A stretch of 64,000 bases of DNA from Pachyseris speciosa (lineage: Eukaryota > Cnidaria > Anthozoa > Scleractinia > Pachyseridae): positions 122,501 to 186,500 of the forward strand of contig JAEMWC010000214.1 in assembly GCA_016490735.1 (NCBI GenBank), read 5' to 3'. Position numbers and translations under genes: made by a program. The notes beneath the pieces are model-generated. The model was not told the DNA's origin and ran no database searches. It saw only the letters and a program-made list of their open reading frames with translations. Below, one piece after another: positions 33,818 to 64,000 of the stretch (its first letter is position 1; the number at the start of each line of letters is the position of its first letter).

Positions 33818-33835
33818 AAATTCATCAAAGTATAA

Positions 33836-34036: not shown

Positions 34037-34169
34037 ATCCGTCAACTGTTGGGGAGGGAAAGGGCGCAGCCGAGGGGAGAAGTCATGTGGAAAGTCACCC
34101 AAATTTTGGCAAATCGGCTTTAAATTTGTTTCATTGTATAATGGCCTGGTTCTGCTTGCCGCAGTAACT

Positions 34170-35090: not shown

Positions 35091-35284
35091 AAAAGATGTT
35101 GGGAAAGGGGATGCAAATCGGCCCATCCCGTTCGAGGCCCTCTGTGCCCCTTCCACCGCCCCCCGCCCCGAAGTGGACAAGGAATGGAAATCAATCCTCC
35201 TTGGTATCCCCCACCTGTTTGGGGAAGTTGGCGAAAAAAAAAGACGCCGATGAAATTCAGGGATGTGCCCCTGTCGAACATTGA
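35091..35284 (+). pseudogene. Core/pX-like basic protein, element B remnant
   Basis: Reads KKMLGKGMQIGPSRSRPSVP and a KLAKKKDADE end. The GKG...SRPxRS...P pattern matches element C 56562-56969 (GKGLHVEHSRPRRSLPVHVP). Shorter than that copy and probably truncated at its N-terminus. Confidence 0.45.
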
Positions 35285-35699
35285 TCTGGCCAATTGGTGC
35301 AAAGCTCTCAGGATCCCCATCAAAGGTATTTTCTCCCGCGATGAAGTCAAACCTCTGCACCATTCGCCTTGCATTTTGAATTTGGATGATTTGGGCAGTT
35401 TGGGAACACACTGGGTCGCTTGCTGGCGCGGGAAAGACACGGAATATTTGGACTCTTTTGGACAGCACCCTCTGTTGGAATGGGAGAAGGAAATGGTGAA
35501 AGCGGGGCACAAAACCTTCCTTCGCAATGAAGAACAAATACAAGCAATCGACAGTGTGCGATGTGGGTACTATTGTTTGCTGTTCTTGAATGAGTGAAAC
35601 AAAGGGACAAGCTTCCCGAACATTCTCCAGATGTTTTCCACAGATGTGCAGGAGAATGAGAAGGTTGTGAAAAATTATTTTGAGAATATACATGGCTGA
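35250..35699 (+). pseudogene. Adenain-like maturation protease, element B
   Basis: From MKFRDVPLSNIDLANW the frame carries GTHWVACW (catalytic His), EYLDSFG (Asp), a Gln-containing helix and DSVRCGYYCLLFL (catalytic Cys), the triad order of adenovirus/Polinton C5/ULP-type cysteine proteases, which cut capsid precursors during maturation. A TGA at 35595-35597 interrupts it; the rest (NILQMFSTDVQENEKVVKNY) continues to a stop at 35697 that overlaps the ATG of the next gene. Without that TGA length would be about 150 residues. Confidence 0.8.
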
Positions 35700-36216
35700 G
35701 TGGTCGCAGAACCCCAAACGTGCCCGGGTCTGAAAAGGTGGTCATGGCCAAAAATGGCCCACAAATGGGGAAAGCTAGGTGCACCGTTTGCGGAATAACA
35801 AAAACGTGTTTTTTGCCGGGAAACTAGCAGGGCCTTCTCGCGCAGAGGGCAAAGGAATTGGCACGGATATTGCTGGAACGGCGATGGATTTGTTTCTTCA
35901 CCATGGAGTTCTGTATCTTGCAAAGAAGGGGGTTTAAATGGGGTGGTACTATGCGTTGGAAGCAATGAGAAACCTGCAATTGCAACAAAGGGCGATTGAC
36001 TATGGGCTCCGGAAGGCAACCCCCCTGTTTCAGAAGGTTGGCCACGAAGCCTTGGACCAACTTTCCACACAGGTTCAGCCCAACAGCTACAAGCCCGACA
36101 GACCTGATCTGGACAAGGTGGGGCGTTGGGTTCCTGTTCCTTTCCCCTTCGTTGATTTCAAGAAACTTTGGGATGTTGTTTCTAACCCCAAGCTTTTCAA
36201 AGGCCCTGAGGTTTAA
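35692..36216 (+). pseudogene. Zinc-ribbon protein with -1 frameshift site, element B
   Basis: The zero frame, from VPGSEKVVMAKNG, has CTVCGITKTCF and ends at TAG (35825-35827) right after GGGAAAC (35818-35824). The homologous protein continues in the -1 frame: GKLAGPSRAEGKGIGTDIAG, then (after one in-frame TAA at 35935-35937) MGWYYALEAMRNLQLQQRAI and PLFQKVGHEALDQLS, ending at 36216. The matching gene in element C (55294-55838) joins the same two parts at the same heptamer. An extra upstream shift near 35720 and the TAA are decay. Confidence 0.7.
35818..35852 (+). promoter_or_regulatory. Candidate -1 ribosomal frameshift signal, element B
   Basis: GGGAAAC read as G GGA AAC in the zero frame, stop TAG at once, a 7-nt spacer (TAGCAGG), then a 7-bp stem GCCTTCT/AGAGGGC with a CGCGC loop. 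Slippery heptamer, spacer and stem fit the standard -1 frameshift layout, and protein homology moves to the -1 frame here. Confidence 0.7.
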
Positions 36217-36234
36217 GCAAAAGAGGGGCGGGCG

Positions 36235-36864
36235 ATGGTTGCTGAATACAAACAGCAATACGTGGATTACAAAAAGCAGGGTGGAACACGCAGCTGCGGC
36301 TCGTGGATAAAGTGGAAGGGGTACGGCGCTGGACTGTTGGGCGACTTGTTTTACGCTTCCCCAGCAGAGCTTGAGAAAAAGGCAAAGTTGTTGGCTGCAT
36401 TAGGAAACGCTCTGATGAGAGGGCGCAGGTTTGAACCTGTTATGAAACAGACCATGCAAAACTATTATGGAAAGGGGGTTGATATCCACAGTTTGATTGG
36501 TAAGCTGCCTACGCCAAAGGGGGGTTGGACTCTCCCCGGCCATCGATACACTGGGCCTTACAACCCTCTGCACAACCAATTGAATTACGATCCTGAAACG
36601 GGGGAGATCCTGGAAATCTTTCAACAGCCGACGGGTGTAACTGATGCTGTGGCAATGCAACACGATGTTGATTACAGCAGTTGTGGTTTTCGCGCACAGA
36701 AGTACGGCGATGACGAAAAAAAGTGCAAGCATGTTGCTGACCAAAAAATGGTCAAAGCGCTTGACACGATTCCATGGAAACAAGGACAATGGGGGCACAC
36801 GTTGGCCCGCAACACGATTAACACGAAACAGAAGCTTGGCCTGGGAGTAACCCATCGCGATTGA
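36235..36864 (+). CDS. Parvovirus-type phospholipase A2 protein, element B
   Basis: An intact 209-residue frame. The PLA2 core has the calcium loop YTGPYNP (GxG-type loop as in parvovirus VP1) and the catalytic dyad HD in AMQHDVDYSSC, then a Lys/Asp-rich helix and the shared end NTINTKQKLGLG. In parvoviruses this activity breaches the endosome membrane; in Polintons and adintoviruses a similar entry role is assumed. It lies in the same frame as the preceding -1-frame ORF, separated by one TAA, so ancestral fusion is possible. Confidence 0.75.
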   Translation: MVAEYKQQYVDYKKQGGTRSCGSWIKWKGYGAGLLGDLFYASPAELEKKAKLLAALGNALMRGRRFEPVMKQTMQNYYGKGVDIHSLIGKLPTPKGGWTLPGHRYTGPYNPLHNQLNYDPETGEILEIFQQPTGVTDAVAMQHDVDYSSCGFRAQKYGDDEKKCKHVADQKMVKALDTIPWKQGQWGHTLARNTINTKQKLGLGVTHRD

Positions 36865-37300
36865 GTTCGTTTACGACTCGGTGAAATTCGTCAGCGACCA
36901 CTCTTTCCAAGGTTCTGGGCCATCCTTGTATTTTACTTGCAAGGGGCATCACCCACCAACACACTGCCAGCAGGAATGGGTATATATTTGTCCTCCATCT
37001 TTCTTCAAAATCCTCAACCTCGTCAACAAAACATAATAATTGGTGCTCCCTGTTTTTCATCATACAGGCAAGACAACGACCGTTGCGCCGCCAATGGTGG
37101 CATTTTCCACATTCTGTGATCATGGTGTAGCAGCCTTCGATTTCACAAAAAGTGACGTCATTAAAAAAACAATAAAGATCGTTGTGTACTTCACCCCGAC
37201 CCGCCCTTTTTTGTCCTGAATTTTTTATTTAATTAATTCGCGAAGGATAATTTCCTTCAACTCGGGTGGGAGTTGGTTGACTGTTGCCAGCAGATCCATT
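36818..37300 (-). CDS. Cysteine-rich unknown ORF, minus strand
   Basis: The minus strand has MDLLATVNQLPPELKEIILR near 37300-37230 (an F-box-like LPxEL start) and, in another frame from about 37210 to 36818, CFFNDVTFCEIEGCYTMITE followed by CGKCHHWRRNGRCLAC and a possible membrane stretch (FLLAVCWWVMPLASK). If one gene, it has a frameshift near 37220. It overlaps the 3' end of the PLA2 gene by 47 nt. No family recognised. Confidence 0.35.
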
Positions 37301-37673
37301 ATATAGGGTGCACCACTCTGTTCACGAGAAGAAAAAAACAATGGAAAAATAAAATTAAGCAAAGGGGCCAAAAGTTCTTCATGAACCCACTGCCAACCCA
37401 TTTTTTTCTCTTTCTTCCAGTTCCATTTTTTTCTCTTTCTTCCAGTTCCTTGGTAGTTGCGATGATAAATTGTGAAGGTCTTTCCAAAAGGGGTTATTTT
37501 AGGCATGATTTGGTTGCCGTCTGACGAAACAACATCGCAGGTTGATATTTTTGGAAAAAACCAAAACTGAATCAAAAGAAACACATTTTGAAATAGTATT
37601 TGGGAACCTCTTCTTGGGAAATAAAAATCAGCCGATTTTATTTTTTGATGAAAAATCATCGGTCGTTTCTTAG

Positions 37674-47240: not shown

Positions 47241-47523
47241 TTGTTGGTGGTTTTTATTTGGGTTATTGGCCAAGCGTGAGGTCAAGATGACCTCGCCTTC
47301 GTCTCAGTCCATAAACACACAAAAAAATAACTTGGCCAATATCCTGCCATCTTGACCGAACAAGCTTGGTCAATAAAGGATTTATTATATGACTCAAAGG
47401 ACGCTATTGAAAGACAGTAAAACGCGGGACGAACGGGCTATCCCGAGCGGTAGCCAATCACAGCAGGAGAATTGATTCATCTTAGTAGTATAATACTTAG
47501 GCTTACCAGCGCATTTTTTTAAA

Positions 47524-47790
47524 CAGTATTTACCGAGAAATGGTTAATTTCAATAGTTATATCACTCAAAAACCAAGTTTTAAAATACTGTATTACATGA
47601 GAAACGTTTAAAAACAATAGTCTTACACAAGTATTTTTTAAACAGTATTCCCCGAGAAACGGTTATTTTCAATAGTATCACCCAAAATTAAATAGTATTA
47701 CACGAGAAACGTTCAAAAACAATAGTCTCACTCGAAGGTAAATTGAATAGTATTCCCCGAGTAATGTTCAAAAACAATAGTTTCAGCCAC
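47524..47790. repeat. Five imperfect tandem units at the left end of element C
   Basis: Units of 50-64 bp share AGTATTCCCCGAGAAACG and TTCAAAAACAATAGT. Polintons commonly start with AG and carry repeats in their terminal inverted repeats, so this may be the left terminal region; the matching right end is outside the window. Confidence 0.65.
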
Positions 47791-47832
47791 CCAAAGACAC
47801 TTAAAGAAATATTACTATAGTATATTGGGAGG

Positions 47833-50800
47833 ATGAGAGAGAGTTTTGATAAGAAAAATGAAAATCAGGTTAATCGCCCAAATGAAAATAAGACTGAGTC
47901 ACGCCAAAACCAGGTTCTCAGTCTTGGGAAAAATTTAATATTTACTATTAATAATACGATGGAAAATCGAAATAGTTTATTCAAGAAATTATTGACAAGC
48001 TTAAGCCAAATGGATGTTAATGAGATGAAGCAATTAGTTAGTCTCGCTGTTGTCATCAAAAAACAAAAGCCAATTCCAGCTCCGAGAATGAAAAAACAAA
48101 AGCCAATTCCAGCACTTCGCAAGAGTGTAAATCAAATGGTTCAAGATTATGAAGACAATATTATTCTTTCACCATTAGAATTTAAGGATAGGCCAGTTCC
48201 ATTACCGAGGACTAAGATAGAGCAAAAAGATAAAGCTCTAAAAGGTTATACAAAATCATATGAAATAAGCATCAAGAATGACGAAGATCCACTCATTCAA
48301 CTACAAGACATGAGAAAGGCTGTTGCATACCATATGACAAATATATTAAAATCCATGAAAGGACTAAAATTTATTGAAACACTAAAGGTTGCATTCAAAA
48401 AAATGTCAGATGGAGGAATAATACAGAAAACTACCTATTTCAATAGTCCACCTCAAACAATTATAATAAATGATCTAGATATTACTAAATCACTAGAATT
48501 ATCAAAACAAAATATATTAAATAAGATTGCAGTTTGGATTTCAGAAGGATCTGGTTGGACTATTCAATCTGTTATTGATCATTATATTAATGTGGTAATA
48601 TATCAGCCAATGAAAGGCTCTTCATATATTAAACTACCACAAGAACTTAGAAACAATGCAAAGGGATTGATTAATTTGAAGAATAATGATAATGAATGTT
48701 TCAGATGGTGTCATATTCGACATTTAAATCCACAAGTCAAAGATCCACAGAGAATAAAAAAATCTGACAGACAATATATTAATAAGTTAGATTATTCAGG
48801 AATCGAATTTCCAGTTGCTGTCAAACAATACAATAAAATAGAAAAGCAAAATATGGTTAATATCAATGTATTTGGTTATGAAAACAAACAATCATATCCA
48901 ATTTATGTTTCAAAAGAAAAGTATGAAGACTGTTTGAATCTGTTGTTGATGACAGAAAATGAGAGTAAACACTATGTATTGATGAAAGACTTTAATATGT
49001 TTATGTTTAATTATACAAAAAGTCACCATAGAAAACACTTTTGTATGCATTGTTTGCAGTGTTTTAGCTCTGAAAGGGTCTTAACAGATCATAAAGAAAA
49101 CTGTATCCAAATAAATGGAACTCAAGCAATTAAAATGCCAGCAGAAGGTGATAACATTTAGATTCAATAATTTTCACAAACAGCTGCCTGTACCATTTGT
49201 AATCTATGCTGATTTTGAAGCTATTACAGAAAAGGTGTCTGGTTGTCAACCCAATAATGATAAATCATACACTGAAGCTTATCAAAAACACACAGACTGT
49301 GGTTATGGGTACAAAGTTGTTTGTTGTTATGATGACAAATACACCAAATCACTGAAAATATATAGAGGCGAAAAAGCTGTGTATAAGTTTATGGAAGCCA
49401 TGTTGCAGGAAGTTAAATATTGCAAAAATGTTATAAAAAAGAAGTTTAACCCATTGGCACCCGTGCCGGCCAAAACCGACCGTAAAAAACTCCCATGCTT
49501 CAAAACATTGCAACTTTCTTAATCGCACGAATATTGCCTTAACTGTTAGTTGTGAGCACGAAATGGAATGCCCTTTAAATTTGGATATCCAATAAATGCA
49601 AGAAACGTAGCGATTTTTACCAAATATGGCCTTTTGAGTTTGGACAAGAACGAAACTGGCCATTTTTAACGTCAAAGAGAAACAACAAAAAAATGCCCCT
49701 TTTTGCCTTCATGTTTTTTAGGGAAATCATCGTCGAAAAACCAAAATTCAACCATCATAACGAAATTCAGTCCTTTTTCTAGCTTAGAAATAACTTTTTT
49801 TGTTCATATTCTTCTCCCGAGCGTAGATACAGCCTTTTGTTCCAGTGCATTCGGGCCTTTCCGCCATTTTCAACATCTAGACCACATTGCATGCTGGGAA
49901 ATGACGAGAATTTTGACAGCACCCGTTCCTTCTCCCAATTCTTTCACATATAAACTAAGTCTACAGCCACTCCGACCTACTGCCAAAAATTCCTGCTTGT
50001 GGTCATCTTCAGGACTCAGAAATTCCAAAATATGTGGCGGTAGGTCGAGAAATTCATCAATAGTTGAGTCCCAAAGGTACTAAGTGTTCGACCGGCCAAA
50101 TTCCCAGTTCGTCGAGTAACAAGCCAAATTCAACAACAAAGTACATCACCTTGCTCGATTCTTTGAGAAAGTGGACTCTTAGCTACCGTCACGCTTAATG
50201 ATGCTCATCAGGCAGCCGCTAAAGATGAAAAGTGGCTGTAAATTTAGCAGAAATCGCAAGCAAACCGAACTTGGGCCATTGTTGTCGCTTCACGGATAAA
50301 AAATAGCTACGTCAAAATGACGTTTTCAGAAACCTTGAGCCTCCAGTGGCTTAGGACAGCACCACTTTTACCTGGTAGTTCAAATAAAGAGTCGCGAATT
50401 GCTATTCATCGTTTATAGGTGGAAAATCACTCCGAAAATGTAAAAACCTGCGGTAGTCAATGGGTTAACAAACCACTGAAAATGACAACAGATAATGAAG
50501 AAGAATTCCAAAAAGCTGACAGATGTCATATGTGTGAAAAAGAATACAAAAAAACTGATGTTAGAGTCAGAGATCACTGTCATATAACTGGAAAATACAG
50601 AGGATCAGCTCACCAAGATTGTAATTTAAACTTTCAGATAACTGATAAAATTCCAGTAATATTTCATAATCTTAGAGGTTATGATAGTCACTTCATTATG
50701 CAAGAGATTGGTGAAATAGTTAAAAAGCATACTTACAAAAATAAGAAAGGTGAAGACTGTCAAATGAATATCAATGCAATTCCAAATAATATTGAGAAAT

Positions 50801-52692
50801 ACATGTCATTTATGCTTGGAAATCATTTAACCTTCATTGACAGTTTCCAATTTATGAGCTCTAGTTTGGAAAAACTAGTGAGTAATCTACCAAAAGAATC
50901 ATTAAAATATACCTATAAAAAATTCAAAGGTAAGATTGATTTGATGTCTCAAAAGGGAGTTTACCCGTATGATTACATGGATTCATTTGACAAGTTTGAT
51001 GACAAGCTACCATCAAAAGAAGAATTTTACAGCATATTGAATAATGAACATATATCAGATAAAGATTATCAACATGCTCAAAACGTTTGGAATACATTCA
51101 AATTAAAAAATATGGGTGAATACCATGACTTATACCTCAAAAGTGACATTCTTCTTCTAGCTGATGTCTTTGAAAATTTCAGGAAAACATGCTTAGAATT
51201 TTAGAAGTTAGACCCATGTCACTATTTTACATCTCCTGGATTATCCTGGGATGCAATGTTAAAGATGACTGGCATCAAATTGGAGTTAATGACAGATATT
51301 GACATGTTCCAGTTTATAGAAAAAGGAATGCGTGGTGGAATCAGCTATATTGCGAATCGTCACGGTGTGGCAAACAACAAGTACATGAAGTAGTATGATG
51401 AGAAGGCGCCCTCAAAATACATCATGTACTTAGATGCAAATAATCTCTATGGTTGGGCAATGAGCCAGTATCTTCCAACAGGAGGATTCAGATGGTTGAC
51501 TGAAAAACAGATTAACAAGTTGGACCTAGCTAAGTACGAAGAAGATAGCAACAAGGGTTTGATATTTGAAGTTGATCTCGAGTACCCAAAGAAGTTGCAT
51601 GATTTACACAATGATTACCCACTTGGACCAGAAAAGATTAAAGTATCTGAAAGCATGCTATCAGAATATTGCAAAAATATTGCAAATAAATATAATATAT
51701 CAACTGGCTTAGTTCATAAACTCATCCCAACTTTGAAAAATAAGGAGAAGTATGTTCTTCATTACAGAAACCTTCAACTGTATATAAACCTAGGGTTGAA
51801 AGTTACAAAAGTTCATAGAGTACTTGAATTCAATCAGTCTCCTTGGTTGAAACAATATATTGATTTTAATACAGTGAAAAGAACAAGTGCTAAAAACGCA
51901 TTTGAAAAAGATTTCTTCAAGCTGATGAATAACTCAGTTTTTGGTAAAACAATGGAGAATCTGCGGAAGAGAGTTGATGTCAAATTAGTTACTGATGAAA
52001 AAAAACTGTTGAAAATGACATCCAAACCAACATTTGTCAGCAGTAAGATATTTAATGAAAATCTGGTGGCTGTACATAAGATCAAAGAAACATTAACCTT
52101 AAACAGGCCGGCATATGTCGGGATGTGTATTCTTGATTTAAGCAAAACTCTGATGTATGATTTTCACTACAACTACATTAAAAAGAACTATGGAGATAAA
52201 GCAAAGTTATTATTTACAGACACAGATAGTTTGTGCTATGAAATTAAAGCAGAAGATGTGTATCAAGATTTTTGGAATAATAAAGATAAATTTGATAATA
52301 GTGATTATCCTGAAGACAATCAGTTCTTCGATAAATCCAATAAGAAAGTCATTGGTAAATTCAAAGATGAAGCTGCTGGTGTTTCAATAATTGAGTTCAT
52401 TGGCTTGCGATCTAAGATGTACAGCTATATCAAAGATAACCAAAAAGGTGGGAAAACCGCTAAGGGTATCAAAAAGAATATTATTAAAAATATTATTAAA
52501 CATGAGGATTATAAACAAACGCTGTTTGAGAATAAACAGTTATATCACACTATGAAAACCATAAGAAGTCAAAATCATCAGTTGGGGAGTTATGAAATTA
52601 ATAAAGTTTCTCTCAGCTGTTTTGACGACAAAAGATATATTATGAAAAATGGCATAGATAGTTTGGCTTATGGTCACTATCTTATCAAGTAA
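47833..52692 (+). pseudogene. Protein-primed DNA polymerase B of element C
   Basis: N-terminus with KPIPAPR/KPIPALR/RPVPLPR repeats (about residues 75-125), a C2H2-like finger (FCMHCLQCFSSERVLTDHKENC), Exo I in VIYADFEAI, a C/H-rich insert (CHMCEKEY...RDHCH), Exo II in HNLRGYDSHF, Pol A in YLDANNLYGWAM and Pol C in LLFTDTDSLCYE. This is the protein-primed family B polymerase that would replicate the element. Lesions: a single-base shift near 49155, a transposon at 49450-50464, and in-frame TAG at 51202-51204 and 51391-51393. The start at 47833 lacks the TCTA motif that marks the structural genes. Confidence 0.92.
49450..50464. mobile_element. piggyBac-type non-autonomous insertion in the polymerase
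   Basis: 1,015 bp beginning CCCATTGGCAC and ending GTCAATGGG, with TTAA at 49446-49449 and 50465-50468. TTAA duplication and CCC...GGG ends are typical of piggyBac. Counting frames, removal of insert plus one TTAA rejoins the two halves of the polymerase in register. An open frame inside (49703-50083) has no recognisable domain. Confidence 0.85.
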
Positions 52693-52893: not shown

Positions 52894-53708
52894 TTAAGGG
52901 TTTTTTCTCCTGCGTGATATATACAATTTACTTTCCTCCATATGTTTGGTTATTTCATAAACTAAATCTTCAAAACAATTGCTCATAATGTAATTGCATT
53001 TATTTTTCTCATACAACTGTTTCATGTTTTGTTGTTTATCCGAAACTTGGTACACACCTGTTGGACTTTTAAATTCAAGACATAAAGCATTGTATTTTCT
53101 AGTTGGATTCATTAACATCAAATCACATTGTCCAGCCATATATCCTTTGTTGTAACTTTTAATTCTCATAATGGAGCTTATTTGATTTTCACCAAGACCA
53201 GCAATCATTAAAGCATCTTTATATTTTTTTCTGATGAATGATACAATCTTAGTGTGCAAATCATTTTCATTTTCAATCAATAGCATATTATTGTTCCTGT
53301 CGTTGAACTGCTTGTAATATCCTTGTTTTCTGATTGATGGTAATACTTTTGATGTAACCCAATGTTTAAGTTTTTCAGCTTCTTGTTTTTTGGATGATAA
53401 TAAAAGTGAATAAAATCCTGATTCGTTTATAAAAAAACATTTATAAGTTTGTTCAACCTGAGGGACCGTTTTGTTCCCCCAGCTATCGACCTGAGGACCG
53501 TTTTGTTCCCCCATGAATTTCTGATTATTTTGAGGTCTCTCAAGATTTTATCATCAGATACAACATGATCTCTAACTGCTTTTCGCGGATTTTTAAATTT
53601 TAGAATGGTAGCAATATCTCTACCTCTGAACCACATATGATTTTTATCATCAAGATAACAATCTATTGATACATCTAATTCTTTATTATTATAGGAATAT
53701 TTTTGCAT
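52894..53708 (-). pseudogene. BRO-N plus VRR-NUC protein
   Basis: The N-terminal ORF (53708-53427) has a BRO-N-like domain: NNKELDVSIDCYLDDKNHMW, FRGRDIATILKFKNPRKAVR. The C-terminal ORF (to 52894) has the end of BRO-N (FINESGFYSLLLSSKKQEAE) and a VRR-NUC-like nuclease with GQCDLMLMN, CLEFKSPTG and a Gln-rich helix (QQNMKQLYE), matching the D...ExK...Q pattern. Such proteins may resolve replication intermediates. A 33/32-nt microduplication at 53457-53521 with a G lost in one copy causes the frameshift. TCTA lies 16 nt before the ATG. Confidence 0.75.
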
Positions 53709-53723
53709 ATAGATATTAATAGG

Positions 53724-54690
53724 TTAGATAATTATTTCACTGAATGGTATCCAACTGTTAAAGTCATCACTATATCCCTTCCATTTCACTAAAACTTGTT
53801 TCTTCTTGTAATCACTCCGAATGACTTTATCAATGCGGAAAACATTCTGTTTGGCTTTTAATAATTCAGGTTCATAAAAACTCCCTTCAATATCTTCACC
53901 TCTGAGATCCTTTATTTTGTATGTGATTGGGTTAGTGTATTGGATCTTATCTATTATGAATACTTCTTCGGTCCAGTTTGGCGTATAACCCTTGTCGAAC
54001 ACATTCCGTTTATACTTGGATATTCGAACCTTATCACCTACTTTAAATTTTGGTTTAGATGTTACTTGCTTCGTGTCACTGTATAAATTAAAATACACTA
54101 TTCCTTCATTCTTTTTCTTTGAAGCCTCTGTGGGAGTCATTTTTGTGCTTGAATGTTTTGTGTTATATTCTTTCACTAATTTTGGTAGCATATCGAGATA
54201 CATTGTATTGCCTTGAATTGTAAACTGTTTCCACATTTTGGACTTGATTGTTCTATTCCATCTTTCAACCACTGAGGACTTTTCTTCATTCTCAGTGGAG
54301 TAAATATGTATCTCATTTTTCTCTAGCAAGTCCTTCAAGTGTTTGTTGTAAAACTCTTTACCTTTATCGCCCCATAGATATTGTGGGCTTCTGCCTTCCT
54401 TGAATATTGTTTGAAATGCTTCAGTTACAGTTTCACCCTTTTTATCCTTCAGAGGAACAATCCAACCATATTTACTGAAAACATCGATAACCATTAAAAG
54501 ATATTTATAACCTTTATTCCATTTGCTGAATTTTTGCATTTCAACAAGATCAGCAGCCCATATTTCATCAATTTTATTTACAATCACACGCCGTCGAGTA
54601 AAGTTGCGTTTTATGGTTTTATGCAATTCATCTGCTAATTTTTCTTGCCAGTTTTCTTCACTCGACGGCTTTTTCCGTTTTTTGGAACAC
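53724..54690 (-). CDS. Retroviral-type integrase with chromodomain
   Basis: RVE core with catalytic D in IWAADLVEM, D in YLWGDKGKEF and E in KSSVVERWNRT, followed by an SH3-like DNA-binding part (FKVGDKVRISKYKRN) and a C-terminal chromodomain (VFRIDKVIRSDYKKKQVLVK, WKGYSDDFNSW) that may direct insertion to methylated histone chromatin. Open and uninterrupted from about 54690 to 53724, but with no ATG before the first catalytic Asp and without the N-terminal zinc-binding part. It is in the -1 frame relative to the overlapping PLA2 ORF, whose end carries A AAA AAC. Confidence 0.9.
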
Positions 54691-55310
54691 CGAGACCTAA
54701 TTTCTGTTTTGTGTTGATTAAGAATCTAGCTGTTTGACCCCATTTTGGCATCTCACCATATGGTATTTGATCAAGTGACTCGACCATAGTTCTATCACAA
54801 TCTCCTTTATTTTTTCCCATATCATAACATATATCGTGATATGCTGCTATTTCATCTACCTTATTGTAAGGTTGGACATGCCATTTTGTGACTTCACCTG
54901 TGTTTTTATCATATTCTAATTGTTTTTCTAAAGGATTATAAGGCCCCATGTATTTATAATTCCCAGGAGTCCAACCTGATTTTGGTTTAGGAAGCTTACC
55001 AATAGCTTTATGAATATCAATAGCACCACCCCTATCAATGTTGTCTTTTACACCTTTGAAAGCTTGACCAGCTAATATCTTTGCTAAACCAGTGAAACTA
55101 GGAGCTGGAGTCACAAAATTTGACAATATATAAGCAGCTTTATCAACAGCTGAAGGACCTTTATTTTGTATTTTTCTTATTGTTGATCTTGAAGCTCCGC
55201 CTTTCTGAAAATCTAATTCTATACCACCTTTTAATAAATTCTTTATTGCACTATCTGCGATTTTAGATCCATATTGTTTTGATATGATGTCAGTCAGTGT
55301 TTTAATGTGC
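54635..55310 (-). CDS. Parvovirus-type phospholipase A2 protein, element C
   Basis: The frame is open from about 55310 to 54635. PLA2 core: IDIHKAIGKLPKPKSGW, calcium loop YMGPYNP, catalytic HD in AAYHDICYDMGKNKGDC with cysteines, then YGEMPKWGQ and NTKQKLGLG. Expected role is membrane breach at entry. There is no ATG upstream of the calcium loop and no TCTA promoter motif; the frame is -1 relative to the preceding ORF (55294-55838), whose last codons include A AAA AAG. Either it is made by frameshifting or fusion, or a start was lost. Confidence 0.8.
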
Positions 55311-55838
55311 TCTTTTTTGGCACTAACAGGCCCTCTACATCTATTTTTAAGATATCACCCCATACAAATCCACCCTTTTGAAAATCTAATCCCTTTATAT
55401 CAGTTTTGTGTAATCTAGTGCCATCTTTACGTTTTGGTCGTATCAAAGCAGATAGCTGCATCAATCCTTCTTTTGCAACCTTGTCTAAAAATGGTTTAGT
55501 GATTTTTACTCCCGTATCAATAACTTTTTGCTGCACTTTTGGATTTCTAAGGGCTTCAGATGCATAATATCGACCGGCCTGCGCCGCTTGTTTGCTGATA
55601 ATTGGAACTAAATGACCAGCAATATCCAATCTGGTCGTTAATAATGTTGATCCAATGCCCGCCCCCTCAGACGGGCCAATCAGTTTCCCTGGTTCTTGAA
55701 AAATTTAGTCTTTGTAAGTCCACATTCAGCACAAGTACATTTCAGCATAGTTCGACCATTTTTAGTCATTTCATATCTTTCACTTCCTGGTACACATTCA
55801 GTGACTTTCTTCTGTTTGATACAATACGATTTTACCAT
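55294..55838 (-). CDS. Zinc-ribbon protein with -1 frameshift extension
   Basis: ATG at 55838, TCTA 12 nt upstream. The zero frame gives 52 residues: MVKSYCIKQKKVTECVPGSE and CTCAECGLTKTKFF, four cysteines of zinc-ribbon type, ending in TGA directly after GGGAAAC. The -1 frame is open from the heptamer to 55294 (131 residues): GKLIGPSEGAGIGSTLL, DIAGHLVPIISKQAAQAGRY, KITKPFLDKVAKEGLMQLSA. Element B repeats both halves and the junction. Because this -1 frame has no other lesion in a decaying element, I treat the junction as programmed rather than broken. Function unknown; likely virion-associated by position. Confidence 0.7.
55656..55689 (-). promoter_or_regulatory. Candidate -1 ribosomal frameshift signal, element C
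   Basis: On the minus strand GGGAAAC (55689-55683, read G GGA AAC), stop TGA, a 6-nt spacer (TGATTG), then a GC-rich stem GCCCG/CGGGC extendable by T-G, C-G, T-G pairs over a short loop (to 55657). Same layout as in element B with different stem bases. Confidence 0.75.
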
Positions 55839-55860
55839 ATATTATTATATTAGATTATTT

Positions 55861-56700
55861 TTAATACATCAAATACAAATCACCATTTCTTTCTTCAATG
55901 TCTTGTTCAGGAAAAATTTTTATGTCAATACCTTTAAGCCGAATTCTTCGTTCTTCTAACATAATTCTCGTTGTTTCACAAACATGCAGAATATCGCCCC
56001 CGTGTAAACAATTCTTTTTCAATCTTATGACTATAGTTTGATTCTCATTATTTTGAATTCTAATTCTTTGATTTTCATTTAACTTAACTTTAATCTCAAC
56101 CAATTTACTCATAGTATTAAGTAAGATATTTTTAAAGTAGTCTGTGATGAATCTGTGATTGAATTTGGAATTATGTATTGTATTTAGAATTGATCTACCT
56201 TTTTGTCTCTCGAGAAGATAGTATACACACCAGTGTCCACACAAAACAGAATCACGCTCTTGTATCTCATTACCAGAATACTCTAATTGTTTTCCACTTG
56301 TGGCCATATATTTCCCTATTTCAATCAGCATCATCAAACCGAATGAATCAAAATACTCACAAAAAAACCCATCTATATTCCTATAACAAACCCAATGCGT
56401 TCCTCTGCCAATTTTGCTGTCAAGATTGACGATTCCACATTCTCTGTTTTTAATCAGTTTCGGTAAATTGTCCCGACTAAAGACTCCTCTAAAATGTTTA
56501 ATATTTAATTGTTTCACCCAATCCAATAAATCAAAGTTAGATAATGGTTTATTTATGAATTTTAGAGTATTGTCCCCAAAATTGGAATATTCATTTTCGT
56601 AAAGGGACTGTTTTTGCCCAACAGAAGACCTTTTCCTTTGGATGATCTTTTTTTTTTCATTCCAAAACCAATTGGGTTGTCCCATGTACCTACAACAGGC
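55861..56700 (-). CDS. Adenain-like maturation protease, element C
   Basis: Catalytic order is H in GRGTHWVCYRNI, D in CEYFDSFG, Gln-helix (EIQERD) and C in SVLCGHWCVYYLL, as in adenovirus/Polinton C5 proteases. The core (about 56580-56150) starts at PLSNFDLLDWVKQLN. A C-terminal extension of about 90 residues (LVEIKVKLNENQRIRI ... FPEQDIEERNGDLYLMY) is not present in element B. No clear ATG at the homologous start; an in-frame ATG inside the pX-like ORF (MGQPNWF) could serve. Open throughout. Confidence 0.85.
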   Translation of the reverse strand, partial: ACCRYMGQPNWFWNEKKKIIQRKRSSVGQKQSLYENEYSNFGDNTLKFINKPLSNFDLLDWVKQLNIKHFRGVFSRDNLPKLIKNRECGIVNLDSKIGRGTHWVCYRNIDGFFCEYFDSFGLMMLIEIGKYMATSGKQLEYSGNEIQERDSVLCGHWCVYYLLERQKGRSILNTIHNSKFNHRFITDYFKNILLNTMSKLVEIKVKLNENQRIRIQNNENQTIVIRLKKNCLHGGDILHVCETTRIMLEERRIRLKGIDIKIFPEQDIEERNGDLYLMY

Positions 56701-56969
56701 GGTGATTGCCAATGTTTTCCACCTCTTTTATTCATTGCAATATGATCTGGAACATGCACAGGCAATGATCGTCTCGGACGACTATGTTCAACGTGTAGAC
56801 CCTTTCCAGTTAATTTTTTAATTGCCTCTATGGCTATTGGAATTGCAAAAGAGGCCAATATTGTCCCCAAACCCTTTCCAATTTGTTTTTTAGTTGGAGA
56901 TATAACAACATGATGTCCACCGGACTGCATCGCATTTATAATATCTTCTTTCTGTTTTTTAGTCAACAT
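56562..56969 (-). CDS. pX-like basic core protein with hydrophobic segment
   Basis: From ATG at 56969: MLTKKQKEDIINAMQSGGHH, a hydrophobic stretch (GTILASFAIPIAIEAIKKL), then GKGLHVEHSRPRRSLPVHVP and a lysine-rich end. The Lys/Arg content and position between pVI-like and protease genes suggest a capsid core or cement protein; GKG/GRG-type sites could be cleaved by the protease. Overlaps the protease frame by about 140 nt. Confidence 0.5.
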   Translation of the reverse strand: MLTKKQKEDIINAMQSGGHHVVISPTKKQIGKGLGTILASFAIPIAIEAIKKLTGKGLHVEHSRPRRSLPVHVPDHIAMNKRGGKHWQSPPVVGTWDNPIGFGMKKKRSSKGKGLLLGKNSPFTKMNIPILGTIL

Positions 56970-56999
56970 ATCTTTGTAAGCTATCAATTGATTTATCTT

Positions 57000-57383
57000 G
57001 CTTTGGGGTACGAGAAAACCCCCTTTTGTTTTCTCCTCCCAAATAGTTTTTCAATTCCCACACTCCCTAAGGCTGAAAGTGCACCTGTTGCCAGAGCCGG
57101 GACTGCTTTTGCACCAAGTGAAAATAAACGACCATAGTGAACCTCCATGTACTACGGCTTTTCTGATTTGTGTTTTTGATATTTTGATGTCTGATCCCTT
57201 TTTCTTATTTTTAGCTTTGATCAGTTTGTTGATTTGTCTTTTAGTTAACATGAGTTGATCATTGCCGGACAGTTCATCATTGGATAATCTGATTGTTACA
57301 GCTGAATTTGAATTGAATGCTTTTGCAAGCTTTTCTTTCTGACCCTGTGAAAGTTTCACTCCATGAGGATGATAAGTAGTCAT
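57000..57383 (-). pseudogene. pVI-like minor capsid/core protein
   Basis: ATG at 57383 with TCTA 12 nt upstream. VKLSQGQKEKLAKAF, LSGNDQLMLTKRQINKLIKA and DIKISKTQIRKAVVHGGSLW, then a frameshift near 57130 and a glycine/alanine-rich amphipathic part (LGAKAVPALATGALSALGSV) ending in basic residues. The same pattern is fused to MCP in element B. Amphipathic helix plus protease partner recall adenovirus pVI, but the link is by analogy. Confidence 0.55.
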
Positions 57384-57432
57384 ATAATATATATTTAGAT
57401 TAAATTGTATTTAAGATAAAAAATCTTTCTTC

Positions 57433-58722
57433 TTACATCGATCTCAGGATCAATTTTCCATCAGTCTTTCTCATTTCAACATCCTGCTCATAGAGGACCA
57501 ATGCATACACACTATAATCTGTTGCTGTTCCTCCACTCAAAGTGTATTTGAATGTCAGTTTAGTCATACCATCCTTGAAATCCTGTTTCTGTTTCGTTAA
57601 ATCGAAATAAATGAATGGGAATATGGAACCGAAGTTGCCCCTGTTCAGCAAGGTAGAATCACTGAATTCATTGACAGCATCGACATATTTCAAAACATCC
57701 CTGAATACTCTTGATGGTTCTGTTGATGGTTTATAGTGAATCTCCGGGTAATCATTTGAATTACCAACCTCAAGATGACAACTCGTCATTGTTCTCGGAT
57801 CAGTTGAAACTGAGAATGTGTTATACAAGAATTTATTAGCTGTCTGATCATTATCACTCGCATCATTGATTATGAAAACAAATACATGCCTCGGTTTGTT
57901 TATTCCTGTTGAAATACAGAAATTAGCTGTCTGTTGTCTGGTTGAATTACCTCTCTCAATCATTTCTCTCATATAGGTCCACTTTCTTGTATCGAGATAT
58001 TTGTCCATGTATAATGACTTTCCACTCGCATTGAAAATAATACGAGGGACTATTAATTGAAATTTGGTGAGTACAACACGACAATTATCAGCAGCCTGCC
58101 AAATTAAATTTGCATCACTTTCAAGTGTCAAGTTCAACTCTATTTTCGAGTTAGGTAAAATTTCATTCCACAAACTCTTGAAAAATCCGTATCTATTCAA
58201 CGGTATTTCTGCATTCACTTTTCCATTGGCGCCATCCAACAACAGTTTACGAGATGCGAACCCTTTATTATAATTAGCGTTCGCTGTCCTCTCTTCAGTG
58301 TGTCTATTTGTGTCGAGATATAAAAACTCATTTGTCCCTTGTGATGAAGCATAACCCTGAGAATAATCAAGCAAGGTTTTGATATTCGTCGCCTGATTAA
58401 CATTTTCACATTGATAAACATCAATACCATTCATTTTCACGTTTATGTCATTGATAAGAGAGAAAGTGGAATTTACCATACCGTTATGATCATTAGCAAC
58501 TATATCAGCTCCATCCGCAAGTTTCTTTACAATGAAATCAACATCCAAACGGGCATTGAACCAATCAAATGGTGTAGTTTCTCCACTGTTGTCAACAACA
58601 AAACGATAACCAGTTTTCTTCTGATGAGCATTATTTGCAACAACAGTATTTAATGCCATCTCAAGTTCAAAGACAATATCTTCATATCGTTCAATATATT
58701 TTGATTCTCGATAGTTTGACAT
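57433..58722 (-). CDS. Major capsid protein (double jelly-roll type), intact
   Basis: 429 residues without interruption; ATG at 58722 with TCTA 12 nt upstream. Recognisable blocks: TTPFDWFNARLDVDF, TNIKTLLDYSQGYASS, EFLYLDTNRH, IPLNRYGFFKSLW and RVVLTKFQLIVPRIIF. The middle block matches the partial MCP of element B. Length and position between penton-like and core genes fit the Polinton MCP, which forms hexameric capsomers. That this is the only large structural gene without a lesion, while polymerase and ATPase are broken, is notable. Confidence 0.8.
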   Translation of the reverse strand: MSNYRESKYIERYEDIVFELEMALNTVVANNAHQKKTGYRFVVDNSGETTPFDWFNARLDVDFIVKKLADGADIVANDHNGMVNSTFSLINDINVKMNGIDVYQCENVNQATNIKTLLDYSQGYASSQGTNEFLYLDTNRHTEERTANANYNKGFASRKLLLDGANGKVNAEIPLNRYGFFKSLWNEILPNSKIELNLTLESDANLIWQAADNCRVVLTKFQLIVPRIIFNASGKSLYMDKYLDTRKWTYMREMIERGNSTRQQTANFCISTGINKPRHVFVFIINDASDNDQTANKFLYNTFSVSTDPRTMTSCHLEVGNSNDYPEIHYKPSTEPSRVFRDVLKYVDAVNEFSDSTLLNRGNFGSIFPFIYFDLTKQKQDFKDGMTKLTFKYTLSGGTATDYSVYALVLYEQDVEMRKTDGKLILRSM

Positions 58723-58740
58723 ATATTAATGGGTTAGATA

Positions 58741-59028
58741 AAGTTTTATTTCTTTTAAGCTTGCCACCTGAGAGAAGCTGACTGAGTCTTTCATTCACTT
58801 CATTTTGTGTTAAAGGTTTGGTCAGTTTAGGTTTTGTTGCTATTGTTGGTTTTGTCTTTCTCTTGCTTAAAGTTCAATTATTTTGTCACCAGCTTTTTTA
58901 CCAGCATAATCACCAATTGTTGCTGCGGTTTTTTCAGCTGCTTTTTTTCCAACTGTTTTGATAATGTCTGTCAAGACCCCTTCACCTTGTTGTTCTTCAC
59001 TACACTTCTTATATGCAAATCATTTCAT
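58741..59028 (-). pseudogene. Small basic amphipathic protein, decayed
   Basis: From ATG at 59028 the minus strand reads a TGA at codon 3, then KKCSEEQQGEGVLTDIIKTV and GKKAAEKTAATIGDYAGKK, a lysine/alanine amphipathic stretch, stop, and a shifted end with LTQNEVNERLSQLLSGG. It sits between penton-like and MCP genes where element B has 33836-34036. An AT-repeat expansion separates its TCTA motif from the ATG. Confidence 0.45.
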
Positions 59029-59084
59029 ATATATATATAATTATATATATATATATAATTAGATTGATTTAGGAAGTTTTTGTA

Positions 59085-61031
59085 TTATAATTCTGTCCCT
59101 CTCAGAAATAACTCAATAAACCAATCTATACCATTCAGATGAACTGGTGCTCCAGAAGAATCGGTGACATAAAAGCGCATTGAACTGATAGTATGTGTTC
59201 AAACTGGATTATATGAAAGATGACGAGGCTTGTATGTGAAGGGGAGAGATCTGACTAGATCTGTGACTGGTATGACAGCGATTGTACTCGTGCTATTCCC
59301 ATCAACGATACTGTCTATAATTTTATCACAATTTATATAAATTTCGTCTACCCCTCTTGTAATGGGTCGGTACATTTCACTGACCCCCAGTCCATGGACT
59401 ACCATGATGGACTACCGAAATGGACTACCTATATGGACTGCTAAATGGACTACCAAAAATGGACTACCCTTAATTACCTACCTTGAAAAAAAAAATTAGT
59501 AAAGTTTGGTTGTTTTCATCGATTGATCGTGATCTCCACCATCTTGTTATTTTTTAAATGCTGCTGGTCAGCTGTTCTGCAGGCGTATTCATTCGTCTCG
59601 TGTGATAGCTGACACGCTGATGGTCAGTAAAAATTTGAATTTATAATCCTTTGTTATAAATAGGGTAGGGAAAATCACAGATATTTTGGTCTTTAAGTGC
59701 CCCTAACACCGAAATATATTCAAAACACATTGCGCCTGTAATTTTTTTTTAAACCAAATCTCGACTTTTTACAGGCTGTAAAAGTTACGACATCTTGCCG
59801 TCATCTGTCACACGATCAAGCTAGTAAGGAGCGTGGGTCTTTTCCCCAGTTAAAGTCACAAACTGATCATCGCGCTACGTCTTCGTAAATACATAATAGT
59901 CAACTGGGGAATAGACCCACGCCCCAGCTGACTTGGTCGTGTACCAAATGATGCATAGTTTATCGTAAGCCCCCATAAAAAACTCTTAAGGCTGGAAATA
60001 AATGCTACATGTTTTTGGAATATGTACAAAGTATTATAATAGCGAAAAAAAAAAACTATTCTTGGGGCTAGGAGCACTTTAAATAAGGTAAGGCTTTTGG
60101 GAAGCAGGCTGCACCCCACCCAATTTTTCTGGGAATACCCCCCTGGGCCTGGTCATGTGATCTATTTTTGAGTTGTATCTTCTTCTGTCACTTACCATTT
60201 TGAGCATCATGACAGCCAGGTAAGGAATCACCTGGAAGATTGTAAATCAAATTTTTACTCTAGCTGCAGCCCGTCAGCCATCATGCACGATGAGTGAATG
60301 CGCCTGCAGAAAAGCTGTCCAGCAGCATTTAAAAAATAAGATGGTGGAGATCACGATCAATCGATGAAAACAACCAAACTTTACTAATTTTTTTTTCCAG
60401 GTAGGTAATTAAGGGTAGTCCATTTTTGGTAGTCCATTTAGCAGTCCATATAGGTAGTCCATTTCGGTAGTCCATCATGGTAGTCCATGGACTGGGGGTC
60501 AGTGAAATGTACCGACCCTCTTGTAATATCAGGAAGATCTGAACCGTACTCTGTGGTCAAAACTACTTTTGAATCAAAACCGAGAAGTTTTCTGAATTCT
60601 AAATTTTGCAAATCCACGCGATAATTTTCATTAAGTTCAATCAAAATACGATATGTTGATAAAATGAAAAATATATTGACACCGTACTTCTTTTTAGCAT
60701 CATCCGGGTCATCGATAACCAGGTGATTATTTTTACTCATATACTCGTGGATATAATTATTAATATCATCATAAGAATACATGCCATCAACAAATGTTAT
60801 CGTTTCCCAATTTACACCTTTGTCGTGACTGTATTTAATTTTATTGTTTCCAAAAGATTGTCTGATATTATACCAACTGTATGTCATATTGATAGTTTTT
60901 ACAGCAATGTCATACTTCATTTCATTTGATAATTTCAGAGGAGTATTAAATCTTTTTGTAAAATCATGACTAAGACTGACGCCTACTTTGTCTCTATTTT
61001 TACTGTTGAAACGTAATGATATTTCTGTCAT
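59085..61031 (-). pseudogene. Penton-like minor capsid protein, element C
   Basis: ATG at 61031 with TCTA 12 nt upstream. N-terminal part: INMTYSWYNIRQSFGNNKIK, TFVDGMYSYDDINNYIHEYM, RKLLGFDSKV, DLPDITRG; then a Mutator-like insertion (59364-60518); then VDEIYINCDKIIDS, LPFTYKPRHLSYN, one TGA, and ISSMRFYVTDSSGAPVHLNG, ending at 59085. The insert plus duplication is a multiple of 3, so the downstream part stays in frame. Homologous to element B 33042-33817. Penton identity is inferred from gene order and the C-terminal strand pattern. Confidence 0.65.
59364..60518. mobile_element. Mutator-like non-autonomous element with near-identical long TIRs
   Basis: 1,155 bp from GGGTCGGTACATTTCACTGA to its inverse, with TCTTGTAAT duplicated at 59355-59363 and 60519-60527. 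The arms (about 260 bp) differ at few positions. Six or so TGGACTACC-type iterons lie in each arm. The 9-bp duplication and long TIRs fit Mutator. The middle carries an ATIC-intron-like interspersed repeat (AGGCTGTAAAAGTTACGACA). Confidence 0.9.
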
Positions 61032-61037
61032 ATACTA

Positions 61038-61301
61038 TTAGAGTAGATATTTCATAATTATTTTATTAAGCTCTTCATTATCGATGATATTCTTATATCT
61101 TTTTAACATGTGCAATATCTTCACAAATTCGTCTCTAACACTTGAACTATTATTCCGGCCAGCAAAAATAGACCCTCCGAGTAACTGGAGTCGTGAAAGC
61201 AAGTCTCCTATATCATTATAATAAACAACACCCTCCCCTGTTTGGTATTTGTAAGAATTTCGTACATCTGTAATCGTTTCTCTATATTTCTTCAAAGTAT
61301 C
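61038..61301 (-). CDS. Small helical protein of element C
   Basis: About 85 residues with NDIGDLLSRLQLLGG, a helix with EFVKILHMLKRYK and LNKIIMKYLL. No ATG: the in-frame upstream codon ATA at 61304-61302, in a TCTT-10-ATA context, may be a mutated start. Counterpart of 32861-33064. Confidence 0.5.
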   Translation of the reverse strand, partial: DTLKKYRETITDVRNSYKYQTGEGVVYYNDIGDLLSRLQLLGGSIFAGRNNSSSVRDEFVKILHMLKRYKNIIDNEELNKIIMKYLL

Positions 61302-61319
61302 TATCTCTCGATTATAAGA

Positions 61320-61848
61320 TTATTTAACTTCTGGTTCTGTTGTGCGTGCTTTTTTTCTTCCAAGTTCTTGATTGATTTTTCCAGCTTTTATCCTTTCTTC
61401 TAAAAGTTTTTGTGGACTGACTTGAGTCAAATCGTTCGGTTTCAAAAGCTTGTAATTTTTTAATATAATTCTGTCATCTTTATTGAAATTGTTATCGATC
61501 GCTAACATTGTGATTTTCCCATCCTCATCCTTTGGTGCTTCAATGGCTTTAGGAAGTTCCGTATCCATTAAAATTGCTTTGCGATTAGCTTCCATAACAT
61601 TATCGAGTCCTTTTGTTAAAGCCAGTTGATTTTGTTTCAACTGTTCAATAACTTCATCCTGTTTATCGTCAATAGTTTTTTTTAACCTTCATCTGAGTAT
61701 CAATAGAAGGTTTTAATAATTCCGATGTTGTATCATATGCATCCTGTTTTGCGTTTTCATAAGTCTTGATAACCTCACGAACTTCTCTCGTCTTATTTGC
61801 AGCTTCAATTCCACTTTGAAGAAGTCTTTTCATTCGCTCTATATCCAT
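61320..61848 (-). pseudogene. Leader protein of element C, frameshift in an A-run
   Basis: ATG at 61848 (MDIERMKRLLQSGIEAANKT), TCTA 12 nt upstream. A run of eight A (61675-61682 on the plus strand as T) ends the first frame; the next frame continues DKQDEVIEQLKQNQLALTKG to EELGRKKAR-type basic end at 61320. Position matches 32129-32891. Function unknown. Confidence 0.5.
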
Positions 61849-61884
61849 ATACAATAGCGTTAGATTAATCTAAACTATTACTAT
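61849..61884. promoter_or_regulatory. Bidirectional promoter with paired TCTA motifs
   Basis: Only 36 bp separate the leader gene ATG (minus) from the ATPase ATG (plus). Each ATG is preceded at 12 nt by TCTA in its own orientation: ATTAATCTAACG (minus) and ATTAATCTAAAC (plus), sharing a palindromic TTAGATTAATCTAA centre at 61860-61873. Confidence 0.65.
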
Positions 61885-62524
61885 ATGGAAATACCAAACT
61901 ATGACATTTTTCAGAATTCAAACAAGTCTTTCAGACAGTTATATCCGTATATGCCGAAAGATACATTTAGAATGTTGCTTGCCGGAAATTCAGGATCAGG
62001 GAAGACTACATTATTTTTACACTTAATTATGCAACCTTTGGTGTATTACGATCAGATACATTTATACGCTAAAAATTTAGATCAAGACAAATACCAATAT
62101 TTACAACAGGAAATGGATAAAATAAGCAAACAAGTTGGTTATCCCGTTTTAATTCAGTCAAGATAAAATTTTACCTGTCGAACAACTTCAAGACACTGAT
62201 TTGCAGCGGTTAATTGTGTTTGATGATTTTGTAACTGATAAAAAACAAGATCAAATTATAAACTATTTTATTCAAGGGCGCCATCGAAACGTGTCATGTG
62301 TGTATCTCACACAGTCATTCTACGGATGCCCGAAAGCCGTTAGACTTAATTGTAGCCATTTCTGTCTATATGACTTCCCATCATCGGGAGAAAGAAACTT
62401 GATCTCCCAGGAACTTGGAATTGAAAAACAAAAGTATATTGAAGCAACCAAAAAACCATATTCTTTCTGTTATGTTGACAAGCCAATGAAAACAGTAAAG
62501 AGAAACTTTTATGGTAATATCTAA
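61885..62524 (+). pseudogene. A32/FtsK-HerA-type packaging ATPase
   Basis: ATG at 61885, TCTA 12 nt upstream. Walker A in LLAGNSGSGKTTLFLHL, then after a one-base shift near 62160 (DKILPVEQLQDTDLQRL) Walker B in LIVFDDFVTDK, a sensor YLTQSFYGCPK and C-terminal KNFYGNI-like end (VKRNFYGNI). This ATPase would pump DNA into capsids. It is transcribed divergently from the leader gene; the two TCTA motifs are arranged back to back in 36 nt. The only lesion is the shift. Confidence 0.88.
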
Positions 62525-62535
62525 TCTAATAGTAT

Positions 62536-64000
62536 ATGGGTATATTCAACTTTTTACCAGGTCAAGATCATGTTGGTCATATAAGAACAAGTTTGGGAAA
62601 AAAGGGTCAAAGAGGCCTCCCCGGTATAGGTTTCAAATTGACTAAAGATGGACAAAATTACGATATCGAAAACAAACGTTTGACAAATGTGGGTGCACCG
62701 GTAGATAAAAATGATAGTGCAACACGTGAATTTGTGACAGATACTGTTTTGTCTGCTTCAGGTACTCAACTCAACCCGTTTGCTTTTTTATTAAAGGATA
62801 AAACCAAATCTACTGTAATACAGAACATGGAAAACCTACAAATTGAAGATTACAATAGATCACCTTTTGTTATCTAATAAACAAATCAGCTTTTTCCTTT
62901 TGGATTAAACAAAGTGGTGACTTTGTCTCTAAAATTTGTTTCGATATTTCTTCATTGAGTAATGGGAAGTACTCTTTTGTATCTGAGTTTTATTCACCAT
63001 CGGACCCACAACAAGCAGCAATCGAATTATCTCTTCCCACAGTTAATATACGTATCGCAGGACAGACATTTCAAAAAGCTTTTTCTCAAACTCCTCGTGT
63101 TGACAGTTACATAAAAAAACTTTTTCAAATCGAAAAAACAGGAAGCGGTCAGACATTGATTAAGGTAGCACTTTCTAGTACAGCTCCCGCACCCAACACT
63201 AAAACCCATCTTATTGTTTATGGTGCCTACGGTTTTCATACACAATTATCTCATTTGGTTCACGATCCTGTTTTTGGGATCGAAAATGGGAATGTTGTTT
63301 TTAATATAGACATGGGAAATACTCACAAAATTATCAATGTACAAAATCCTACGGGATTAAAAGATGTGGCAACAAAAGAGTAAGTGGATCATAATATATC
63401 AGGAGGTCAACATTCAGCCTTCTTAAAGAAAGACGGAAGTATTGCAATGACAGGAAACCTTAATATGGGGCAAAATCTTATTACCAATTTGAATAATCCA
63501 ATAAATAACCTCGACGCTACAAATAAAGTTTATGTAGAAAATCAAATTGCAAGTTGTTTAAAACGAGATGGAACTGAACCGGCTCTCGGCGATCTGAACA
63601 TGGCAGGATTTGCAATTGAAGATTTAAAAGATGCTGAAAATGCCGTTAACAAAAAATATGTTGATCAGGGCTTACGGATTAAACTAGATGCAATTGCTCA
63701 AAAAGATCTAAATATGAACAATAATGCTATTATCGATCTTGCTCCTCCCGTAAATTTAGATGATGCAGTTACAAAAAGGTACATAGATGAATATTTCTTA
63801 CGACGAGAAGGTTCGACTATGATGTATGGCGATCTGTCAATGGGTGGGAAAAAGTGACAAATGTGGCGGATGTGGTGAATGAAACCGATGTAGTGAATTT
63901 TAGAGTTTTAAATCGAGCTTCACAATCTATCAGATCAGCGGCCTTGTTACTAAATGGATCAAACGCGATGACCGCAGACTTGAAAGCCGGAGGGAATAAA
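62536..64000 (+). pseudogene. Collagen/phage-fibre-like spike protein, runs off the window
   Basis: ATG at 62536, TCTA 12 nt upstream. A GKKGQRGLPGIG collagen-like stretch is followed by a fibre repeat (NKRLTNVGAPVDKNDSATRE), a middle domain without recognised family (62871-63380, after a shift near 62870), and then repeated phage-tail-fibre-like units: MTGNLNMGQNLITNLNNP, LDATNKVYV, LGDLNMAGFAIEDL, AVNKKYVDQ, LNMNNNAIIDLAPP, DDAVTKRYID. Lesions: frameshift near 62870, TAA at 63381-63383 (in a TKE(Y)VDH context), frameshift near 63853. A trimeric receptor-binding fibre is the likely role. Confidence 0.75.

Follow-up and report, generated by a model that had tools for sequence, protein, structure and literature searches.

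Seven genes of a Polinton in the coral Pachyseris speciosa each start at a two-part sequence motif, TCTA followed after 9 bp by TAT or TATA, and we regard it as probable that this motif is a late-class promoter of an animal Polinton that encodes its own regulator of the VLTF3 kind. The Polinton, here called element C, spans C214:169984-195512 (25,529 bp) and lies partly within the 64-kb stretch of contig JAEMWC010000214.1 that was analysed as a whole (the window); coordinates refer to the window unless prefixed C214, and L-numbers denote regions fetched from the genome. The motif, its spacing, the class of genes that carry it, and the presence and position of a VLTF3-like gene are direct observations on the DNA. 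All DNA results come from this one host species, which is an animal, because its assembly contains 70 matches to the animal-specific wnt (best E 2.9e-60).

A preliminary description of the window had placed TCTA 12 nt before the start codons of the genes for the major capsid protein (MCP), a zinc-ribbon protein, pVI-like, penton-like and leader proteins, the packaging ATPase and the fibre, on both strands, and these seven sites are real. The pattern TCTA-N9-TATATG has seven matches in the window, all within element C and each at the ATG of an open reading frame (ORF) of 52-429 codons, as against a mean of 0.11 and a maximum of one in 100 dinucleotide shuffles of the window. Among ATG-initiated ORFs of at least 50 aa, TCTA stands at distance 12 in 7 of 35 within the window part of element C, where every other distance occurs at most twice, and in none of 114 within window positions 1-47000. 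Outside element C the looser TCTA-N12-ATG occurs at eight window sites, seven of which open into 1-34 codons; the eighth, at 4973, falls on an ATG within a longer ORF. The irregular starts are also as first described: TCTA lies 16 nt before the ATG of the BRO gene, an AT-rich spacer of 31 nt separates it from the ATG of the small gene at 59028 (whose frame meets a stop at codon 3), and none occurs in the 120 nt ahead of the DNA polymerase B (PolB) ATG at 47833.

The rigid element of this arrangement is different from the one originally proposed. Genome-wide counts were made on both strands of the 984-Mb assembly, with the pattern read backwards as control. TCTA-N9-TATATG has 4536+4479 = 9,015 matches against 837+826 = 1,663 for its control; a spacer of 8 shows no excess (688+736 against 1368+1337), nor does a spacer of 10 (839+803 against 849+917), and the excess is thus limited to spacer 9 among the three spacings tried. 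When the ATG is moved by one, TCTA-N9-TATAATG is still enriched 4.6-fold (1398+1479 against 300+325), yet TCTA-N10-TATATG, with the same distance from TCTA to ATG, stays at the control level; therefore, the unit is TCTA, 9 bp and TATA. Consistent with this, when TCTA was allowed at 11-18 nt from a gene's ATG, 12 of the 93 sites depart from distance 12, and in 9 of those 12 TAT still follows 9 nt after TCTA, although these nine include two pairs of identical sequence. A constant spacing does exist, as the preliminary description held, but what is constant is TCTA-9 bp-TAT(A); a fixed distance from TCTA to ATG was dropped as the constraint, since the TCTA-TATA spacing is kept when the ATG shifts. 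The unit looks like a two-part promoter composed of a core and an initiator, with the start codon overlapping the initiator or lying just behind it. Inspection by eye of the gene starts read revealed no TATA box at a constant position further upstream of TCTA.

The same counts bear on whether the motif might act in RNA, as a translation start context or a splice-leader acceptor, and be no promoter. Its location at the start codon would suit such a role, but a shifted ATG leaves the TCTA-TATA spacing intact and alters the distance to the ATG, and TCTA contains no AG acceptor; we consider an RNA-level function very improbable.

The motif recurs across copies of the element. Gene starts were compared in twenty regions of 9.9 kb, 19 of them picked around motif clusters and hence biased, the other being the stretch to the right of the window. 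Alignments that did not begin in the first 8 residues of the homologue, or that lay less than 60 nt from a region end, were dropped, and where several ATGs lay no more than 9 nt from the homologous start, the ATG giving the TCTA distance closest to 12 was used. By this measure TCTA stands exactly at 12 in 17 of 19 places for MCP, 18 of 18 for penton, 18 of 18 for the leader gene, 16 of 19 for the ATPase and 9 of 11 for the fibre. Zinc-ribbon starts have it at 12 in one of seven and at 13-15 in five of seven, VLTF3-like gene starts in none of five, and pVI starts in 2 of 13, with TATA taking its place in the other 11. Of two other genes at the right end, g7257 shows TCTA-N9-TATATG in L036, L038 and L042, 3 of its 16 rows (13 distinct places), and elsewhere mostly a TATA-like sequence; none of the 12 rows of g7692 has TCTA at 12. 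The pVI-like and g7257 genes mostly carry TATA-N9-TATATG in other copies and perhaps belong to another promoter class. No TCTA was found within 50 nt upstream of the integrase start in the two other copies read, or upstream of the phospholipase A2-like gene in the one other copy read. In L034 and L046 no stop interrupts the frame of the protease match as far back as the pVI ATG, and joint reading of the two may occur there. Because the choice of regions favours the motif, MCP starts were also sought by their first codons, which avoids selecting on it: 1,353 were counted, and among the first 100 listed, judged by eye, 98 have TCTA at 12 and two have TGTA. Many MCP copies are near-identical; therefore, the count reflects how far the element has spread, not how often the motif arose independently.

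That near-identity raises the prospect that the motif is functionless and was simply passed down with each copy of one element. It is nevertheless common to seven unrelated genes of a single element. Moreover, in a set of 56 distinct sites picked for having TCTA at 12, conservation extends to positions that played no part in the choice: A at -12 and T at -1 are present in all 56, A at -8 and A at -2 in 55 each, and T at -6 in 49; the upstream bases are more variable than these. A motif without function is the explanation that we find hardest to credit.

Element C extends beyond what was first described: it does not end at the fibre gene and continues to C214:195512, 9.0 kb past the window edge. 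Its terminal inverted repeats (TIRs) match over 345 columns at 91.9% identity; the outer ends of the element read AGTAGT and ACTACT and are flanked on both sides by the 6-bp target site duplication CATCTT. At its right end, on the minus strand and starting 3 bp inside the right TIR, lies a 230-aa ORF (C214:194472-195164) that the preliminary description missed because it is outside the window. Through its relatives, this ORF appears to be related to the poxvirus and giant-virus late factor VLTF3 (viral late transcription factor 3). The C-terminal region of its relatives matches PF04947 and the zinc-ribbon cysteines are present; 38 of 52 relatives match at E 0.01, and around the Pfam cut-off of 25, L031 (25.9) and L038 (26.9) score above it and L050 (24.0) below, as does element C's own copy. 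A likeness of the VLTF3-like profile to NusA, found by sequence against PDB with a best E of 0.01, was set aside. Of 56 cases checked in the main subfamily, 46 have the gene 6-12 kb ahead of an MCP gene; its start carries a variant core, mostly TCTC in place of TCTA. Vaccinia late factor genes belong to another promoter class than the late genes. At the opposite end, the PolB ATG follows 6 bp inside the left TIR. Since both genes start right at the TIRs, most of the DNA upstream of PolB is also found upstream of the VLTF3-like gene, which suggests that the TIRs may hold shared early promoters for the two. GACGTCA-like sites were noticed ahead of the VLTF3-like gene in L031 and L050, and the TIRs (47484-47826, and L049 8869-9213) contain diverged internal repeats with a CTCGG-like core.

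Promoter function, its timing, the factor's binding to TCTA and the identity of the polymerase are what we infer from these observations. In the proposed mechanism, a TCTA core, a fixed 9-bp spacer and an initiator usually overlapping the start codon would give rise to almost leaderless mRNAs. PolB and the VLTF3-like gene, both starting at the TIRs, would be made first, and the VLTF3-like zinc-ribbon factor would then steer RNA polymerase to the TCTA promoters of capsid, penton, packaging, fibre and accessory genes. The late switch is plausibly encoded by the element: the promoter-like class at virion-type genes, present in almost every copy sampled, and the constant location of the VLTF3-like gene fit together. 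No RNA polymerase gene was seen among the subset of element C ORFs that was scanned, and the enzyme should therefore come from the host, as RNA polymerase II (Pol II), or from a helper virus. Host Pol II, redirected by a putatively TFIIB-like viral factor, is the most likely candidate, since element C brings its own factor. Whether this Polinton group possesses a complete viral cascade of its own, with TIR promoters for PolB, TCTC-N9-TATA for the factor, TCTA-N9-TATA for the virion genes, and a TFIIB/VLTF3-like factor through which host Pol II is passed to the viral late genes, is a more tentative proposal, to which we lean somewhat less than halfway.

Virus-type late transcription, as suggested in the preliminary description, thus stands insofar as promoter-like sites occur at virion-type genes, far above chance and in many copies; its attribution to a giant-virus or other viral polymerase is unsupported as stated, the element carrying its own VLTF3-like gene. 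A giant-virus polymerase could be at work, though the mechanism does not require one. Element C would in that case resemble a virophage: a co-infecting giant virus would supply both the RNA polymerase and the late factors that act on the TCTA promoters, which is the scheme put forward for mavirus with CroV. We judge this unlikely, though the least so among the alternatives. Against it stands the VLTF3-like gene that element C carries and that mavirus is not known to have. In favour of the virophage-like reading, the TCTA late core is common to CroV, EMALE type 4 and ChlorV, virophages are thought to borrow giant-virus late machinery, and of the EMALEs only those bearing TCTA responded to CroV (PMC10945749). 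Giant-virus-like DNA may also have entered the lineage: L051 (G000:C743:36500-38400) holds at 631-1191 a clear giant-virus-type VLTF3 ORF (PF04947, 79 bits) adjoining two ORFs without a Pfam match, and six more PF04947 matches are stronger than the Polinton ones (C283, C435, two in C234, C402 and C10). These loci may represent giant-virus DNA that became endogenous, or else a different group of elements; the 1.9 kb of the L051 stretch contain no TCTA-N9-TATATG site, which counts against the giant-virus polymerase. A search for the nucleocytoplasmic large DNA virus capsid family was silent in the genome and in its controls alike, and so carries no weight.

The converse simplification would have the motif be an ordinary host Pol II initiator that needs no viral factor, the VLTF3-like protein having another role. 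Host Pol II is the sole polymerase sure to be present, and TCTA resembles an initiator. The rigid 9-bp spacing, the location of sites inside the coding ends of neighbouring genes, and the systematic difference in core between MCP and VLTF3-like starts all speak against it, as does element B in the same window (31500-37500), where TCTA stands at 12 nt in 0 of 24 ATG ORFs, although element B is a decayed, GC-richer (about 49%) Polinton-like remnant and many of its ORFs may not be genes. We consider an ordinary host initiator quite improbable.

The layout of element C within the window is given in Table 1. The start codons of the leader and ATPase genes are 36 bp apart and their two promoter-like sites divergent. 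The integrase matches PF00665 at E 4.1e-10; the MCP has 2037 homologous proteins and no Pfam family match. Against Pfam, the three PolB pieces gave Endonuclease_7 in the middle piece as sole match and no PolB family, and a PolB piece searched against PDB gave no match. A retroelement-like ORF was noticed by eye within element C (L049 3119-3853) and, elsewhere in the window, a 489-aa ORF of viral-type Rep/helicase appearance (4260-5729).

Table 1. Features of element C in the window; the names MCP, penton, pVI, fibre and protease are labels of the preliminary description.
Feature	Position	Strand	Remark
Target site duplication CATCTT, left copy	47478..47483	.	right copy C214:195513-195518, outside window
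Left TIR	47484..47826	+	begins AGTAGT; partner C214:195168-195512 (inverse)
PolB region, three open pieces (47833-49161, 50419-51204, 51424-52692)	47833..52692	+	motifs by eye
BRO-like gene, two overlapping frames	52894..53708	-	Pfam Bro-N
BRO promoter-like site	53706..53728	-	TCTA-N9-TAT retained
rve integrase with chromodomain	53724..54626	-	Pfam
Phospholipase A2-like gene	54635..55126	-	PF08398
Zinc-ribbon gene, 52 aa	55680..55838	-	PF18930 DUF5679
Zinc-ribbon promoter-like site	55836..55854	-	TCTA-N9-TATATG
pVI-like gene	57051..57383	-	preliminary label
pVI-like promoter-like site	57381..57399	-	TCTA-N9-TATATG
MCP gene, 429 aa	57433..58722	-	preliminary label
MCP promoter-like site	58720..58738	-	TCTA-N9-TATATG
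TCTA and AT-rich stretch ahead of small gene 59028	59026..59063	-	
Penton-like gene	60438..61031	-	preliminary label
Penton-like promoter-like site	61029..61047	-	TCTA overlaps 3' end of upstream gene
Leader gene, N-terminal piece	61669..61848	-	ORF
Leader promoter-like site	61846..61864	-	back to back with ATPase site
ATPase promoter-like site	61869..61887	+	back to back with leader site
Packaging ATPase, two frames	61885..62524	+	PF04665 Pox_A32, E 5.4e-6 and 8.8e-8 for its pieces
Fibre promoter-like site	62520..62538	+	TCTA overlaps ATPase stop codon
Fibre-like gene(s), three frames	62536..63857	+	preliminary label

Searches of virus collections did not extend the picture. The motif in virus contigs was rejected as chance-like: 86 IMG/VR stretches contain TCTAAYNYAATANTATATG, with one match each, and in 3 of 86 an ORF of at least 60 aa follows. 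None of these 86 stretches holds a locus with at least three ORFs having TCTA at 12; tblastn found no IMG/VR relatives of the MCP, ATPase and VLTF3-like proteins; and six proteins searched against PHROGs gave one weak match of unknown function. In the available portions of the open-licence literature searched, including PMC12945077, PMC10328495, PMC12638062, PMC11633385, PMC6905037 and PMC11071308, we found neither a TCTA promoter nor VLTF3 tied to animal Polintons, and VLTF3 figures as a giant-virus marker in those papers examined that treat both VLTF3 and Polintons.

A rigid promoter class at virion-type genes and a VLTF3-like factor encoded by the element make it directly testable whether animal Polintons behave as viruses, through measurable quantities, namely, 5' ends, timing and factor dependence. 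The finding also bears on the origin of giant-virus late transcription, because VLTF2 and VLTF3 homologs are described as undetectable outside Nucleocytoviricota (PMC11253617); if the proposal of a complete cascade holds, VLTF3-type late control would be shared or exchanged with animal Polintons and not private to giant viruses. Relative to the VLTF3 of Nucleocytoviricota (PF04947), the element-encoded protein is alike in the C-terminal match of its relatives and in its zinc-ribbon cysteines, but it is distant and resides in a Polinton. In the sea anemone Exaiptasia, a lone VLTF3 has been reported among metazoan genes (PMC5294986), and it may share its origin with the Polinton gene.

Among metazoan Polintons or Mavericks, for which the end motif AGTAGT//ACTACT and 6-bp duplications are documented (PMC8097293), element C is typical in its TIR ends, 6-bp duplication, integrase, ATPase and PolB-like region at one end; among metazoan MCPs, those of cnidarians alone fell outside the main Maverick-Polinton cluster (PMC10120064). 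Poxvirus late promoters, which consist of a core, 5-7 bp and a TAAAT initiator (PMC5294985), offer a parallel in their combination of core, short spacer and initiator at the start codon, whereas the core and initiator sequences of element C differ and no RNA polymerase gene was seen there. The TCTA late motif itself is in print for CroV, EMALE type 4 together with mavirus, and ChlorV (PMC8547959, PMC13196603, PMC5294985), which bears out the likeness first noted for CroV and mavirus: all share with element C a TCTA core and A/T-rich flanks upstream of genes. Element C departs from CroV, EMALE type 4, mavirus and ChlorV in being an animal Polinton, in tying TCTA rigidly, at 9 bp, to a TATA half and in having its own VLTF3-like gene, and the TCTA core that it has in common with CroV, EMALE type 4 and ChlorV may reflect common descent, borrowing or convergence.

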